From contig PDTL01000017.1 of NCBI GenBank assembly GCA_002748835.1, positions 1 to 64,000 of the forward strand: 64,000 nucleotides of DNA, read 5' to 3'. Shown here in pieces: positions 9,956 through 18,769 of the stretch (positions within the stretch are counted from its first letter, which is position 1; each line of letters begins with the position of its first letter). A model generated the notes under the pieces. That model had not been told where the DNA came from. It did no database searches and worked only from the letters and a program-made list of their open reading frames with translations. A program made the translations under genes and the position numbers. This stretch comes from Deltaproteobacteria bacterium. GTDB taxonomy: Bacteria > Desulfobacterota > Desulfobacteria > Desulfobacterales > GCA-2748835.

Positions 9956-12900
9956 TCACAAAGCCGTGGCCTGATACAGCCAGACCCGCAGCATGGAAAA
10001 CAGCCGATCCGGGTCCACCGGTTTTTCTAAATAGTCACTGGCGCCGGCTTCAATACACTTGGCCCGGTCTCCTTTCATGGCTTTTGCGGTCAGCGCAATC
10101 ACCGGAAGGTCCCTGAACTTTTCCTGGGCGCGAATGGCACGGATGGCCGCGTATCCATCCATTACCGGCATCATGATATCCATGAGTACCAGGTGAACAT
10201 CCGGATGCGCGTCCAGTCGTTCCAACGCTTCTCTGCCGTTTCGCGCGACCCGGGTGGTCATCCCCCTGTTTTCCAGTATCTGCTTCAAAGAAAAAATATT
10301 CCGCATATCATCATCCACAATCAGCACTTCTTTATTCGCCAGGATCGCATCCTTGTCATACATCCGCCGGAGGATGGCCTGTTTTGCTTCAGGCAGATTC
10401 ACTTCGTTTCGGTGCAGAAACAGTGTGGTCTCGTCCAATAGCTTCTGATGAGACTCCACCCCTTTGAGAACCGTAGAAGCCGCGCAGCTATCCACATACG
10501 ACCGTTCTTCCGCCGTCAGCTCCCTGCCCGTGTAGACAATCACCGGAAGATGCCGGCCCCCGGAGTTGGCCTGAACTTGATCCAGGAGGCCCAGACCGGA
10601 CTTGTCCGGCAGCCCGATATCGAGCACCAGACAGTCAAACTGGACCTCTGCCAGAGCTTTTTCCGCAGCCTCTGCGGTTCTGACAAAGGTGATTTTCACG
10701 TCCCCGTTTCCGATGATTTTAGCAATGGCCTGCTGCTGAACCGTGTTATCTTCCACCACCAACAGATCTTTAACGGGTTTGGAGATCATTTGATGGATAT
10801 GGGTGTACATCGTAAACAGATTTTCTGCATTCACTGGTTTCAAATGAAAACCAGCTGCGCCCATTTTCAAGGCGTCCAGTTCAGCGTCCGTACCGGAAAA
10901 CAGGTGAACCGGAATATGCCGTGTGTCCGGGCGTTCCTTCAGGCGCGCCATGACCCCCCACCCATTGAGCCGGGGCAGCCCGAGCTCGAGCAGAATCGCG
11001 CTGGGCGCATAGTAATCGGCAAACTGGAGCCCCGTTTCACCGTCACCGGCAACCAGGGCTTTGAAACCGTTCTCATGGGCCATGTCCCGGAGCGCACGGG
11101 CAAACACCGGATCATCCTCAATAATCAACACACGCCGGTCTTTGGGCAGCAGATTGCGCCGGTCATCTTTCACCAGATCAATGGCGTTCGCGTGTGGCAC
11201 CGCTTCATGATCACCTGGTCCTGGTGCCATGGCCAGAACCGCATCCGGACCCAGGTCTTCGGGCACTCCCTTTTTTATCGCCATGCGCCGAGGCAGGATA
11301 AGGGTGAACACACTTCCCTCTCCAACACGGCTTGTCAGAAAAATACGTCCGCCAATGAGCAGGGACAGCTCGCGGGCAATGGACAGCCCCAGCCCCGTCC
11401 CTCCGTACAGCCGGCTGGTCGATCCGTCCGCCTGCTGGAAGGCTTCAAATATCAGTCGTTGTTTGTCTTCCGGAATCCCGATCCCGGTGTCGGATACGGA
11501 GATGGACACCGCGTTTTCCGGGGTCAGGTTCATCTCTGCCGGCAGGTTTTCTGTGTCCGGAATCTGGACACTCAGGGTGATGACACCCTGGGAAGTGAAT
11601 TTCAGGGCATTAGAAATAAAATTCTTGATAATCTGCTCTAACCGCTGTTTGTCCGTCACCATCAACTCGGGCAGATCTTCGTCTGTCCGCACGGCAAAGA
11701 TCAGGCCCTTTTGAATGGCGAGCGGCGTAAACGTCCGCTGCATACCGGCCAGAAACTCGCTGATGGGCATCTCAGCCGGATATACATCCAGCTTGCCGGC
11801 TTCCACCTTGGAGAGATCCAGAATATCATTAATCAGGCTCAAAAGGTCCTCGCCGGCTGTGAGAATGGCCTCGGCTGACTCCTGCTGGTCTGATGACAGT
11901 CGCTGATCCGGATTGTCGACCAGGTGACGGGCCAGGAGCAACATGCTGTTCAGCGGTGTGCGCAGTTCATGGGACATGTTGGCAAGAAACTCGGATTTGT
12001 ACCGGCTGCTCAACTCCAGCTCGGCTGCTTTTTCTTCAATGGTCTGCCTGGCTGACTCCAATTCCAGGTTCTTTTTCTGGATCTGGCTTTTCTGAGATTC
12101 CAAAATAGTGGTCTGCTCTTCCAGTTCCGACGCGTTCCATTCCAACTCTTCATTGGTATGGCGCAACACCTCCTGCTGGTCTTTGAGCCGGGCTTCGGAC
12201 GCCCGGAGGGCAACGGCCTGTTCTTCCAGCTCACGATTCGCCTGGTTGAGATCCTCTTCCCTCGACTTCAGGGCTTCGGCCTGTTCTCGCGTTTTGGTGA
12301 GCAGCGTTTGCATCCGAACCCGGGACATGCAGGAATCAACCGCCACGACAATGCTCTCTGACACCTGATGCAGAAATCGGATCTGCGTCTGGTTAAACGG
12401 CTTGAACCCGCCGATCTCCACCACGCCGGTGAGCTTGTCGTCCATGCACAGTGGAAAGACCATCAGGTAGTTTGGTGCCGCACTTCCCAGGCCCGAGGCC
12501 ACCTGCATATAGTCGGTCGGGCAATCGCTCACCAGAACCATGTTCCGGTCACGGGCCACCTGGCCCACCAGTCCTTCGCCCACGGCAAACTGACGGGGTT
12601 TGTCGTCCGGATTTTTCCAGGCATAGGTCCCGGCCAGTTTCAGTGTGCGCCTGCCGGTCAACACGTAGAAAGCGCCCACCGGTGCTTCGAGATGGTCGCA
12701 CAGGAGGGTGATGATCTGTGACGTCAGGGTCTGGAGATCCGGTTCCCCCCGCATTTCATCGTAAAGCTGGGTATGACCGGTGATCATCCAGTTCCGTTGC
12801 TCGCTCTCCATCCGATACTTCCGGATACTGGTCAGCATCCGGTTGATGCTGGCAGCCAGGCGACCCACCTCATTGCTCGCCTGCACATCAATTACATGGT

Positions 12901-14032
12901 CGAGATCGCCATTCGCCACCAGACGGGCACCGTCGGCCACTTCGCGAATAGGCCGAACGATTTTTGCAGACAGGAGCATACCCACCATGGCTACGGCAGT
13001 CACCATCAGCGTCAACAGAAAAAAGAAATACCGAAGATACTGATTGGTATCGCCAAAGGCTTCGGCAATTTCCACTTCTGCGATCAGCGCCATGGGTACC
13101 GTTCCCATGACAAAACCCGCCTGCACGCCGAGTACTGGATGACCGTGAAGGCCGTTATAGGTAGAGGCCGTATACCCAGCTGTTTCAATGTCTTTTTTCC
13201 GGTTTTCCGCCAGATGCGATCTGAACGCCCGAATCTGATCCGTATCCACCTGAAAGGTCATGGCCGTTTCCACGTCGGCGCTGCTGACATTGGACCGCAT
13301 CCACCCGTCTGCTCCCACCAGGTACGTCTCTGATGTCTCACCCAGCCCCATGTCCTGACGGAGGATGGCGTCTATGGGAGCCAGAGAAAACTGAACCACT
13401 AAAAGGCCCGGCGAAAGAGCGCCCTTCCCCCGAATCGCCTGCACAACAAATCCGAACACGCCACCCGAAGGCGGATAGACGCCGTAATCGGAAAATACAG
13501 GCTGGTCGGTTTCCATGGCCCTGGCACACGCCGCTGACAACCGGGATGCCGAAAGGGAGCCGGTAAACAGATTTTTCCCTAGATCCCCTTCGTTTTTTAC
13601 CGAATACCGCACATTCCCGGCCCGATCCACCAGCAGTACATCATGGAACCCGCACGTTGACCGGAATGCCGCCAGGTCCGCAGACGCATCACGCGGGTCA
13701 GCTGATCGCGACGGGCTCACCCCATACGCATCAGTCGTCTGATCCGATTCATCCCAGCGATTGACCAGCCACTGCATGAATCGCCATGTGGATCCTGCGT
13801 TTGTCTGGTAGCGGACATCTCGAAGCATTTCATTATAATAGCTCTTAATCTGGCGGATTTTACAGGTAGCCGCCATATACAGCCGCACGCCTGTATCCGT
13901 GTGCAGCTGGGAATGGGCGCGAATACCCGTTGCAATCCCCACCAGGCAGACAGGCAGCACGGAAAGGCATAAAAAGCAGATAAACAATGTCCGGGTCAGT
14001 CCGGATCGAAACAGTCTGCACACCTTCATCAA
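9956..14032 (-). CDS. Hybrid sensor histidine kinase (Cache-like sensor, HAMP, GAF, HisKA, HATPase, multiple REC)
   Basis: FLANMSHELRTPLNSMLLLARHL, HATPase GTGLGLSIA, then several REC domains incl. VLMDIMMPVMDGYAAI. Confidence 0.93.
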   Translation of the reverse strand: MMKVCRLFRSGLTRTLFICFLCLSVLPVCLVGIATGIRAHSQLHTDTGVRLYMAATCKIRQIKSYYNEMLRDVRYQTNAGSTWRFMQWLVNRWDESDQTTDAYGVSPSRSADPRDASADLAAFRSTCGFHDVLLVDRAGNVRYSVKNEGDLGKNLFTGSLSASRLSAACARAMETDQPVFSDYGVYPPSGGVFGFVVQAIRGKGALSPGLLVVQFSLAPIDAILRQDMGLGETSETYLVGADGWMRSNVSSADVETAMTFQVDTDQIRAFRSHLAENRKKDIETAGYTASTYNGLHGHPVLGVQAGFVMGTVPMALIAEVEIAEAFGDTNQYLRYFFFLLTLMVTAVAMVGMLLSAKIVRPIREVADGARLVANGDLDHVIDVQASNEVGRLAASINRMLTSIRKYRMESEQRNWMITGHTQLYDEMRGEPDLQTLTSQIITLLCDHLEAPVGAFYVLTGRRTLKLAGTYAWKNPDDKPRQFAVGEGLVGQVARDRNMVLVSDCPTDYMQVASGLGSAAPNYLMVFPLCMDDKLTGVVEIGGFKPFNQTQIRFLHQVSESIVVAVDSCMSRVRMQTLLTKTREQAEALKSREEDLNQANRELEEQAVALRASEARLKDQQEVLRHTNEELEWNASELEEQTTILESQKSQIQKKNLELESARQTIEEKAAELELSSRYKSEFLANMSHELRTPLNSMLLLARHLVDNPDQRLSSDQQESAEAILTAGEDLLSLINDILDLSKVEAGKLDVYPAEMPISEFLAGMQRTFTPLAIQKGLIFAVRTDEDLPELMVTDKQRLEQIIKNFISNALKFTSQGVITLSVQIPDTENLPAEMNLTPENAVSISVSDTGIGIPEDKQRLIFEAFQQADGSTSRLYGGTGLGLSIARELSLLIGGRIFLTSRVGEGSVFTLILPRRMAIKKGVPEDLGPDAVLAMAPGPGDHEAVPHANAIDLVKDDRRNLLPKDRRVLIIEDDPVFARALRDMAHENGFKALVAGDGETGLQFADYYAPSAILLELGLPRLNGWGVMARLKERPDTRHIPVHLFSGTDAELDALKMGAAGFHLKPVNAENLFTMYTHIHQMISKPVKDLLVVEDNTVQQQAIAKIIGNGDVKITFVRTAEAAEKALAEVQFDCLVLDIGLPDKSGLGLLDQVQANSGGRHLPVIVYTGRELTAEERSYVDSCAASTVLKGVESHQKLLDETTLFLHRNEVNLPEAKQAILRRMYDKDAILANKEVLIVDDDMRNIFSLKQILENRGMTTRVARNGREALERLDAHPDVHLVLMDIMMPVMDGYAAIRAIRAQEKFRDLPVIALTAKAMKGDRAKCIEAGASDYLEKPVDPDRLFSMLRVWLYQATAL

Positions 14033-14209: not shown

Positions 14210-14803
14210 TCACGATTCGTCACTCATTTTTAAATGAACCGGCGACTGTGCCCGGCACCGGGCAGCCTGCCAGCAGACCAGCGCCATGGAAACTGCCGGC
14301 CGACTGTAGTCCGCGCGGGTCACCTGACCGTTGCTGAGAATCCCGATCAACCCTTCAGCATAGCCGATCCGAGGGTTGTCGGTCAGACCGGCAGCCGACA
14401 CCGCGTCGTCCAGCTCCATCCCCTGCCGCACCACACCGTTGGCCAGTTCGGGGGGCAATTCAAAGGCCGGTCCCAGGCCAATGTACATCTCAGAACCGTC
14501 ATAGAGGGCACAGACCGTGACATTCATGTACCCGGATCGGGTCTGGGGAACGGGAATCACCCCCGACTCAAGGCCGATGCCCCAGTCCCCCCCTTCCTTG
14601 GCAGCCATGGCCCGGTTCCGGGCTCCCCGCACCGTCAGATCCATTCCCACCGGCTGATCTGCCACGCCCGATGTCACTGCCCGGGCAGACAACCGTACCC
14701 CGCCGGGGATATTCCAGTCGGTGAGTACCGCCTGGACCGCCGCAAACTTGACCGGGTTCTTTGAGCCCAGACACACATCCATCATGCCGTCCTCCCTGTT
14801 CAC
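14210..14803 (-). CDS. yjjX: Inosine/xanthosine triphosphatase (DUF84/YjjX family)
   Basis: DVCLGSKNPVKFAAVQAVL...VADQPVGMDLTVRGARNRA. Confidence 0.85.
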   Translation of the reverse strand: MNREDGMMDVCLGSKNPVKFAAVQAVLTDWNIPGGVRLSARAVTSGVADQPVGMDLTVRGARNRAMAAKEGGDWGIGLESGVIPVPQTRSGYMNVTVCALYDGSEMYIGLGPAFELPPELANGVVRQGMELDDAVSAAGLTDNPRIGYAEGLIGILSNGQVTRADYSRPAVSMALVCWQAARCRAQSPVHLKMSDES

Positions 14804-14880
14804 CCGCCCGCCGATTCTTGCCCTTGCTTTATGCGGTACTGGGTTTTATGATAAAAGATTGTCTGCGCTAAGGAGATGTG

Positions 14881-15306
14881 ATGCTGACCTGTCGCCCCCC
14901 TGCCTGCCTAAAAACCCCTCCCGGACCGCAGTTTCCCTGCGACGCCGGCAGATCGCCTTCGACTGAACCGTCAGCAGGTCCGGACGATGCCGACACCGCA
15001 GACCCTGCGGTCCGCTGCAGAGCGTGTCAGCAGACACTGACCCGACCGGATTGGGCCATCCGCCTCAACGATGCCCACCTGCACGTTTTTGCCAATCCCG
15101 CCGGTGTGCTGTTTGAAATCGTCTGTTTTTCAGAAGCACCCGGCTGCCGTGTCCTGGGCCTGCCGTCAGGCGAATTCACCTGGTTCCCCGGTTATGCCTG
15201 GCAGATCACCCTCTGCCGAACTTGCGGCACCCACATTGGCTGGCATTTTTCCGGCACGGGTGCCCCTTTTGACGCCCTCATCACCGACCGGATCACCATC
15301 ATCTGA
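14881..15306 (+). CDS. CULT domain (cereblon thalidomide-binding-like) protein
   Basis: CRACQQTLT...NPAGVLFEIVCFSEAPGC...EFTWFPGYAWQITLCRTCGTHIGWHF; two CxxC pairs and three Trp as in cereblon WFPGYAW...CxxCxxHIGW; AAGGAG upstream of ATG. Confidence 0.9.
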   Translation: MLTCRPPACLKTPPGPQFPCDAGRSPSTEPSAGPDDADTADPAVRCRACQQTLTRPDWAIRLNDAHLHVFANPAGVLFEIVCFSEAPGCRVLGLPSGEFTWFPGYAWQITLCRTCGTHIGWHFSGTGAPFDALITDRITII

Positions 15307-15341: not shown

Positions 15342-16082
15342 TCACCGCTCGGCTGCCGCCCGCCATCGCCTTACCAGTTCATAAATGATCTCTGCGGTCA
15401 GTCCCCAGATGATCTCCCCGTTCACCCGATACAGGCGCACGGGGTATTTCCGGCCGCCCCAGGCATGGTGGTAGGCTTCCGGCAGTCCCAGATCTTTTGT
15501 CGGAAACAGCACGACTTTTTCCCCTTCTGCATTCAGATACGCCGGCTGGACTTCCACTCTCACATGATAGGTCTCAGGGGCTGTTTCCAAAAAATATGAC
15601 ACAGGCACCGTAAACACCCGGTCCACCTCTTTCGGATCCAGGGAGAGTGCCGTGATATCGGAGAGAGCAAGCCGTCCCACAAAAGATTCCAGAACCGTAC
15701 CCATGGCGGCGACCAGGGTGCCGAGACGCCCGTCGATGCAAATCTTGTCCGCATCAATTCCGAGTTCTTCCACCGTCTCCCGGATAGCCGTTTCCCGGCA
15801 GTCACGATCATCATGGGCCGCGTAATGACCGCCTGGAAAACAGATCTCCCCGGGCTGCCTCACACCGGCCGCGCGTTTCTCAAACAGCAAATGATACGTC
15901 CCGTCCACCCAGACCAACGGCACCAGAACGGCGGTATAAAACCAGCGATCCCTTCCCATGATCCCCGGACATTCGGGAAGCGCATCAACCAGTTTCCGGT
16001 ATTCGATTTCCTGCATATGCTTTCTCCGGCGGACAGCTGATAAAAAAAATCCATTGAATTTTGACTGAATGCGATATACCAT
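15342..16082 (-). CDS. NUDIX hydrolase (CoA pyrophosphatase-like); start possibly at the internal MQEIEYRK
   Basis: Nudix box GGHYAAHDDRDCRETAIRETVEELGI. Confidence 0.88.
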   Translation of the reverse strand: MVYRIQSKFNGFFLSAVRRRKHMQEIEYRKLVDALPECPGIMGRDRWFYTAVLVPLVWVDGTYHLLFEKRAAGVRQPGEICFPGGHYAAHDDRDCRETAIRETVEELGIDADKICIDGRLGTLVAAMGTVLESFVGRLALSDITALSLDPKEVDRVFTVPVSYFLETAPETYHVRVEVQPAYLNAEGEKVVLFPTKDLGLPEAYHHAWGGRKYPVRLYRVNGEIIWGLTAEIIYELVRRWRAAAER

Positions 16083-16140: not shown

Positions 16141-17112
16141 ATGAACACACGGAACCGCATCTGGATCCTCGTCAGTCTTTTGTCTGTTTTCTGGGTCTCT
16201 CCGGGCTTTGCCGGAAACACCATTGCTGATCACACCATTGCCAAAGAGCAGGTGCTGCGCGCCATTCCCGCATCTGCCATTGAAAAGGCCAAGACCGATC
16301 TCCATATCCTCTACTGCGGGACCTCCCATTCCCAGCAGGTCGTGGAAGGGATGCGCGGACTCATGGCATACAAACCCGGTGACGACACCCTGTACGCGTT
16401 CACCTATGACGGCAATCAGCAAACCGGGAAACTCGATATCCGGTACCGCGCCGCCTCTGGAACGGATCTCAGCCACGACAGCATCGAGGGAAATGGACAC
16501 ACCGGATATTTCAACGGCACGGTCAATTATCTGGACGACCATCCGGACGTGAATACGGTCATGTGGTCCTGGTGCAGCATCGAAGGGCATGATGTGAGCA
16601 TCTATCTTGATGAGTTCGGCACCCTGATCAACCTGTATGCGGCGGGCGGGTCCAAAGGCCGTACCCAGGAAAACGCGGTGAGTTTCATCTTCATGACCGG
16701 CTATGCCAGGGGAGATGACGGCGATACGCCGGAGCCCCCTTATATCCAATCCCCGTACCAGAACCACAAACGGATCGTCGATTACTGCCGGGCCCACGGT
16801 TACTACTGTCTCGATTACTGGAGCCATGACGTCTACAATTACGGGGATGACAGCTACAAGCCCACGGAAAACGGCAATGACAACGTCCAGCACAAGGCAT
16901 GGGTGGACGATCCGGAAAACGCGCAGGGAGAGGATTGGTTCCCATGCCGGAACTGGATAAGCGGCAAAATTGATCTGCCCGCTCACGCGAACCAGCACCT
17001 CACCGGAAACCGGCGCGCCTATGCTGCCTGGTGGATTTTCGCACGCCTGGCCGGGTGGGACGGGAAAAGTACCTGTCAGGCACCGATGCAGATGCTGCTC
17101 TTAACTGACTGA
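16141..17112 (+). CDS. Secreted protein of unknown function, SGNH-hydrolase-like features
   Basis: Signal peptide MNTRNRIWILVSLLSVFWVSPGFAG; LHILYCGTSHSQQ N-terminal block. Confidence 0.65.
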   Translation: MNTRNRIWILVSLLSVFWVSPGFAGNTIADHTIAKEQVLRAIPASAIEKAKTDLHILYCGTSHSQQVVEGMRGLMAYKPGDDTLYAFTYDGNQQTGKLDIRYRAASGTDLSHDSIEGNGHTGYFNGTVNYLDDHPDVNTVMWSWCSIEGHDVSIYLDEFGTLINLYAAGGSKGRTQENAVSFIFMTGYARGDDGDTPEPPYIQSPYQNHKRIVDYCRAHGYYCLDYWSHDVYNYGDDSYKPTENGNDNVQHKAWVDDPENAQGEDWFPCRNWISGKIDLPAHANQHLTGNRRAYAAWWIFARLAGWDGKSTCQAPMQMLLLTD

Positions 17113-17536: not shown

Positions 17537-18769
17537 TCATTTGCCATGAATTGATCCGGGATACAGCGTTGCGGTTACGGAAACCCGGCGCGCGGCTTCA
17601 TCCACGGTGACGGTCACTTTCCCCGGAGACGCATCGCCGATGCCATATCCGGCCACCAGCTCGTCAATGGAAAGCACCTGCCCCGGATAGGGCGGAAACA
17701 AAGCAGCGTGCACAGCGGTTTCCACCCCATGCGGCATGCCGTCAGAGCCGAAGATAAGATCCCTCCCCGGCACATATCCAATATCATCAATGAGCATCCG
17801 GAACGGGTTGTTTTTTCGGGCCGCTGCCGGTGAAAGCCGGTCTGCGTAGATCTCGGAATCCGTGCTGAAATTCGGCTGCATGCAAAGCCGACACCCCATA
17901 CGGCGCAGACGCGTGGCCTGGTCCCGGTTAATGAACTGGGCATGTTCTACCCGGGTTTCCGGATACGCCCGCCCAGTCTCCCGAACCATTTCCAGCACAG
18001 ACACCACCTGCTCCAGGGCCCGGTCGCCGATGGCGTGAATGGCCACGGCCTTATCCCACGCATAGGCCTGAGAAATCCGCGATTCGAGCAGCAGGTCTGA
18101 AAAATTGAGCACCCCCCGGTTATCCAGGGAAAACGGTTCCTGAAGCGCCGCAGTGCGGGCTCCCAATGAGCCATCTGTAAACAGTTTGATTCCCTGCACC
18201 TGTGCTCGCCGATGCGCCGGCAGACCGGAAAACGTATCCGGATCCACCCAAAACCGGGTCCGTCCAGCCAGTTTTGCCTCATCAAAGCATGCCAGCTCTG
18301 CCTCGCCAGACAAGCTCATCTCGTCAGCGATCCAGATGCCCTGGTCGGCAAGGTCCGTGTAAAAGGCTGTCAGGGAGGCAGGCGTTACCGGACAGATTCG
18401 TACGATCAGATCGAGCAGGGACGCCGTATGGGCTTCCATCCAGACCGGGTCATCCAGGTGGGCAATCAGCTCTGGATATTTCTCCTGCATCACATGCCTG
18501 GCACCCGCATTCAGGATCAGGCCATGCAGAGATGCGTTAAAGACCACCAGAGGAGCCATGGCATCAAACACCGGCCCGCGAATATCATAACAGGCATCGT
18601 TCCACCCCAGCGCCATATTTAGCGGCGCCTGGCAGGCGGACAGGCATTCCAGGGCCGCCGCCTGATCCGTAATTCCGCGCAAATCCGGCGAGCTCCGGGT
18701 TGCGGCATAGAGGTACGGATGGGAGTGATGGTCCCGGAAAAAAGGCAGGGTATGGGAACCCGTCGTCAT
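17537..18769 (-). CDS. Amidohydrolase family protein
   Basis: FRDHHSHPYLYA metal-binding motif, GIKLFTDGSLGARTAAL, AIHAIGDRALEQ, RVEHAQF. Confidence 0.85.
   Translation of the reverse strand: MTTGSHTLPFFRDHHSHPYLYAATRSSPDLRGITDQAAALECLSACQAPLNMALGWNDACYDIRGPVFDAMAPLVVFNASLHGLILNAGARHVMQEKYPELIAHLDDPVWMEAHTASLLDLIVRICPVTPASLTAFYTDLADQGIWIADEMSLSGEAELACFDEAKLAGRTRFWVDPDTFSGLPAHRRAQVQGIKLFTDGSLGARTAALQEPFSLDNRGVLNFSDLLLESRISQAYAWDKAVAIHAIGDRALEQVVSVLEMVRETGRAYPETRVEHAQFINRDQATRLRRMGCRLCMQPNFSTDSEIYADRLSPAAARKNNPFRMLIDDIGYVPGRDLIFGSDGMPHGVETAVHAALFPPYPGQVLSIDELVAGYGIGDASPGKVTVTVDEAARRVSVTATLYPGSIHGK

Follow-up and report, generated by a model that had tools for sequence, protein, structure and literature searches.

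A bacterial cereblon-type CULT protein and its conserved N-terminal tail peptide: a possible tethered reader of C-terminal cyclic imides

The window, referring to the whole stretch of 64,000 nucleotides analysed, encodes a protein that is a member of the CULT-domain family of the bacterial MsCI4 type, with both the aromatic cage and the zinc site intact. The protein belongs to the known bacterial CULT group described in 2015 and is not a new family. In the order Desulfobacterales, many of its relatives carry a disordered N-terminal tail with a conserved nine-residue peptide, which lies some 26 residues ahead of the domain and reads approximately H-L-[FL]-R-x-P-[PA]-[ED]-K. This peptide goes beyond the published account of the group as a CULT domain alone and is the new part of the analysis. 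The window protein may be an adaptor, or tethered reader, that recognises cyclic imides at protein C-termini, a tentative reading in which our confidence stays somewhat below even.

Gene, CULT Domain and Aromatic Cage

The gene occupies positions 14881–15306 of the forward strand, on which all features of the protein given below lie, and encodes 141 amino acids plus a stop codon. Its ATG at 14881 is preceded at a distance of 5 nt by the Shine-Dalgarno sequence AAGGAG (14870–14875, +), and a promoter and terminator scan around the gene found none. The product consists of a 43-residue Pro/Asp-rich tail followed by one domain, the CULT domain (aa 44–139, 15010–15297), whose beta-tent fold was assigned by phmmer, AlphaFold and Foldseek. 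The phmmer search against all PDB chains returned chains of MsCI4 (cereblon isoform 4 from Magnetospirillum gryphiswaldense, MGR_0879; PDB 4v2y and others) as the best matches, with E-values of about 5e-34 to 1e-33, followed by human, mouse and chicken cereblon at about 1e-14. In the AlphaFold model, built with a 69-sequence alignment, the domain reached a pLDDT of 93–98, and the top Foldseek matches of this model were all MsCI4, with ~48% identity and an rmsd of about 1.1 Å. Pfam gave a sub-threshold match alone, to Yippee-Mis18 (PF03226, E 0.0015, under the curated cut-off), which is a related beta-tent family, while the full cage is the signature of CULT.

The cage residues W101, W107 and W121 with Y105 (15181–15243) align with W79, W85, W99 and Y83 of MsCI4, and the first (C46-RA-C49, 15016–15027) and second (C112-RT-C115, 15214–15225) CxxC pairs align with its zinc ligands. 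NPAG (aa 72–75, 15094–15105) corresponds in the MsCI4 alignment to NPxG, a motif situated in the flexible hairpin (PMC4449219). C46, C49, N72, W101, F102, W107, C112, C115, G120, W121 and F130 are invariant over 69 homologs. The preliminary description of this DNA, made from the sequence alone, had proposed a cereblon-type CULT domain with an intact cage of three Trp and two CxxC zinc pairs, all of which is borne out by these results, and the stretch that it quoted, TWFPGYAWQITLCRTCGTHIGWHF, was confirmed in the window protein.

MsCI4 is therefore the nearest known protein by sequence and fold, sharing the single CULT domain, the cage, the zinc site and NPxG, but its wild-type Y101 stands where the window protein has F123. 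Eukaryotic cereblon (CRBN) shares the CULT, or thalidomide-binding, domain, whereas the window protein has neither the LON domain nor the DDB1-binding region and is built of the CULT domain and tail only, as seen with Pfam and AlphaFold. The two also differ in that bacterial F99 stands at the position of H378 in human cereblon.

Distribution

Of 58 relatives, 37 have a CULT homolog. An order-wide sample of 292 genomes yielded homologs in 181 (about 62%), nearly all with a single copy, and a phylum-wide sample of 297 genomes yielded them in 29, a few of these being order members. In a separate genome collection, the named matches came from sulfate reducers, some alpha- and gamma-proteobacteria, one spirochaete and acidobacterial bins. 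This spread agrees with the taxonomic range of the published group, which is mainly delta-proteobacterial with a few alpha- and gamma-proteobacterial members and one spirochaete (PMC4287342).

The Conserved Tail Peptide

The tail peptide was defined by an EM motif search over 71 homolog tails, in which the 10 residues before the CxxC were left out since the first run had locked onto the domain edge. The log-likelihood reached 217, compared with 122 ± 5 (maximum 130) in 30 composition-preserving shuffles, and the median distance from the peptide to the first zinc cysteine is 26 residues. With the motif matrix fixed at this stage, sequences outside its training set were scored. Among held-out order relatives with less than 70% identity to the training sequences, 39 of 72 reached the threshold, against a mean of 1.8 and a maximum of 7 in 500 shuffles, and 5 of 17 tails from the wider phylum did so against 0.6, but the shuffles keep the relatedness among tails, so that fewer independent events lie behind such counts than the figures suggest. 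Held-out CULT tails scored at least 7, the threshold, in 46 of 83 cases and at least 11 in 27 of 83, whereas the corresponding numbers for the control set, the N-termini of neighbouring genes at these loci, were 14 of 391 and 0 of 391. The consensus of the 46 held-out sites is about H-L-[FL]-R-V-P-[PA]-[ED]-K. Directly after the peptide, conservation drops to near zero in a linker with many E, K, D and P residues. That a conserved peptide and an unconserved linker sit side by side in the same proteins is a better argument for selection on the peptide than the shuffle counts are.

In the window protein, the peptide ACLKTPPGP (aa 8–16, 14902–14928) was placed by MAFFT in the motif column block without prompting. 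The site gave p = 0.009 against its own shuffles, six of the 391 control N-termini reached its score with the held-out matrix, and it departs from the consensus in having K for R and ending in GP. ACLKTPPGP is thus probably a real but weak instance of the motif, judged from alignment and motif scoring. It is followed by a Pro/Asp-rich linker (aa 17–43, 14929–15009) that is predicted to be disordered. The Pro-rich N-terminus had earlier been regarded as extra; the tail is indeed there, but comparable tails occur in the homologs, many with the conserved motif.

About 45% of the held-out relatives lack the motif or have it in degenerate form, though some homolog tails may reflect wrong start codons. 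The motif is likewise absent or degenerate in Rhodospirillaceae tails, and the tail of MsCI4 differs from those above in holding no motif site (score −11.8), so the core function of the domain does not need the motif. Tails of spirochaete and gamma-proteobacterial CULT proteins (L047, L032 and L056) resemble the motif, e.g., LLFFDPAAE, and the tail may extend beyond the order. The bacterial CULT proteins grouped by Lupas et al. 2015, mostly delta-proteobacterial, have the same domain and the same taxonomic spread and were described as CULT domain entirely (PMC4287342), whereas over half of the order members examined here carry the conserved N-terminal peptide on a linker. No mention of the peptide was found in the freely available papers searched, and an earlier description is possible.

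Proposed Function and Alternatives

A peptide this short, conserved while the disordered linker that bears it is not, most likely serves for docking on another protein. We propose that the zinc-pinned CULT domain would bind cyclic-imide ends in its tryptophan cage, the putative ligands being C-terminal aspartimide or glutarimide formed in damaged proteins, or uracil-type rings of similar chemistry. The disordered acidic or Pro-rich tail, bearing the hydrophobic-basic docking peptide, would attach the reader to a partner, most likely the protein quality-control machinery, to which the marked proteins would be handed over. Cereblon recognises C-terminal cyclic imides, which form when asparagine or glutamine cyclises, and promotes the removal of proteins that bear them (PMC12117711, PMC11974815). 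Both thalidomide and uridine are ligands of MsCI4, which becomes ordered around its ligand (PMC4449219). As the cage is the same, the window protein probably binds the same ligand class, by analogy with these two proteins. That the tail binds a partner, and that this partner is a protease or a chaperone, are both inferences.

The pocket admits another reading, namely that the CULT protein is a small-molecule binder sensing or buffering uracil, dihydrouracil, hydantoin or succinimide-type rings instead of a protein reader. MsCI4 takes uracil, uridine and thalidomide (PMC4287342, PMC4449219), and its solved structures include complexes with deoxyuridine and valerolactam. This reading leaves the conserved tail unexplained, however, and no pyrimidine or nucleotide gene is conserved near the CULT loci surveyed, which makes it unlikely.

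The tail could also act in cis by capping its own CULT domain, as the conserved N-terminal motif of cereblon touches the CULT domain of that protein and may relay pocket occupancy (PMC4287342, PMC4449219). In neither of two AlphaFold models was the tail docked on the CULT domain of its protein, with a tail pLDDT of 55–62 in the window protein (residues 1–40) and of 41–59 in a canonical-motif relative modelled with a motif-aligned family alignment, although low confidence is not proof that the tail is free, and an apo model could miss the contact because CULT folds only around its ligand. Against these models and a linker of about 26 residues that is acidic and unconserved, cis-capping is doubtful.

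Since the beta-tent fold includes the MsrB and GFA enzymes (PMC4287342), the protein might instead be a relative of MsrB or the formaldehyde-activating enzyme that repairs or opens cyclic imides. The invariant residues are explained by the cage, the zinc site and the fold, with no conserved catalytic residue recognised among them, and cereblon and MsCI4 have both been described as binders, all of which renders an enzymatic role very improbable.

For the tethered reader, the closest analogy in layout, and only an analogy, is the ClpXP adaptor SspB, which likewise combines a binding domain, an acidic flexible linker and a short hydrophobic-basic peptide. According to the statement in PMC7226468 that cites Wah et al. 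2003, SspB delivers substrates to ClpXP via its linker and docking peptide. The likeness between the SspB peptide LRVVK and FRVPPEK of the CULT tails is suggestive only, and the two proteins differ in having unrelated folds and in carrying the docking peptide at opposite ends. The E. coli SspB sequence, which ends in LRVVK, matches 8et3 over its full length. SspB was detected in 0 of 58 order genomes, and its domain (PF04386) had no Pfam match in the window protein, whose nearest folds are CULT. A ClpXP-like protease as the partner would be a guess by analogy, and one could guess just as well at peptide binding sites of the DnaK type. The more specific proposal that deltaproteobacterial CULT proteins are degradation adaptors, reading C-terminal cyclic imides while the N-terminal peptide docks an AAA+ protease such as ClpXP, is accordingly put forward as a long shot.

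A partner search by co-occurrence with Lon (LON_substr_bdg) or PIMT was abandoned as uninformative, because both are present in 58 of 58 order genomes and such universal co-occurrence says nothing on the partner. The LON_substr_bdg matches listed in relatives sit for the most part in frames of Lon-protease size, with some shorter. Three such matches in the window's own genome (G000 contigs C7, C34 and C35), all located in frames that exceed 800 aa, probably represent three Lon proteases.

MsCI4, itself a bacterial CULT protein, is a standard model in cereblon drug design. As MsCI4 has no tail motif, work on it may have missed a feature by which members of the group bind a partner, and the conserved putative docking peptide offers a direct handle for finding the partner with the tail as bait. 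If that partner were a protease, cyclic-imide-directed degradation would take place in bacteria without ubiquitin, and if the adaptor reading were true, the system would be a ubiquitin-free bacterial counterpart of the cereblon degradation pathway.

Gene Neighbourhood

The gene is flanked by yjjX (14210–14803, −; PF01931, E 3.5e-39) and by a NUDIX gene (15342–16082, −; PF00293, E 1.6e-5), which the preliminary description had named correctly. Since yjjX is divergent from the CULT gene and the NUDIX gene convergent with it, neither can share an operon with it. Searching 77 other CULT loci with tblastn found yjjX at none and NUDIX once, with a marginal match (E 0.005), and the yjjX-CULT-NUDIX neighbourhood, whose conservation had been suggested as a check, is thus not conserved. 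The damaged-nucleotide clean-up module, raised earlier as a possible link because two nucleotide house-cleaning families adjoin CULT in this one genome, was dropped as barely credible given the opposite strands and these loci. Protein-damage sensing, by contrast, is plausible, its basis being the pocket chemistry in the literature, not the gene context.

Clustering of ORFs within about 7 kb of 74 dereplicated CULT loci yielded as shared families only clade-local or very common ones, e.g., response regulators and ABC ATPases, although flanks of often a few kb, frequently short contigs and a crude ORF caller mean that a distant conserved partner could be missed. Elsewhere, the genes adjoining CULT are functionally unrelated and include an amidase, rubrerythrin, DeoC aldolase, YcaO, a chemotaxis receptor and a histidine kinase. 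YcaO enzymes introduce peptide-backbone modifications, and in a single relative a YcaO protein (L102:5194–6921, −) overlaps the end of the CULT gene.

Three further genes surround this locus in the window. A large hybrid sensor kinase of 1358 aa with HAMP, GAF, HisKA, HATPase and three receiver domains is encoded at 9956–14032 (−), and an apparently secreted 323-aa protein with a signal-like N-terminus and no Pfam match at 16141–17112 (+). The third, at 17537–18769 (−), encodes an Amidohydro_3 protein of 410 aa whose match begins at profile position 222, possibly representing an N-terminally shortened amidohydrolase.
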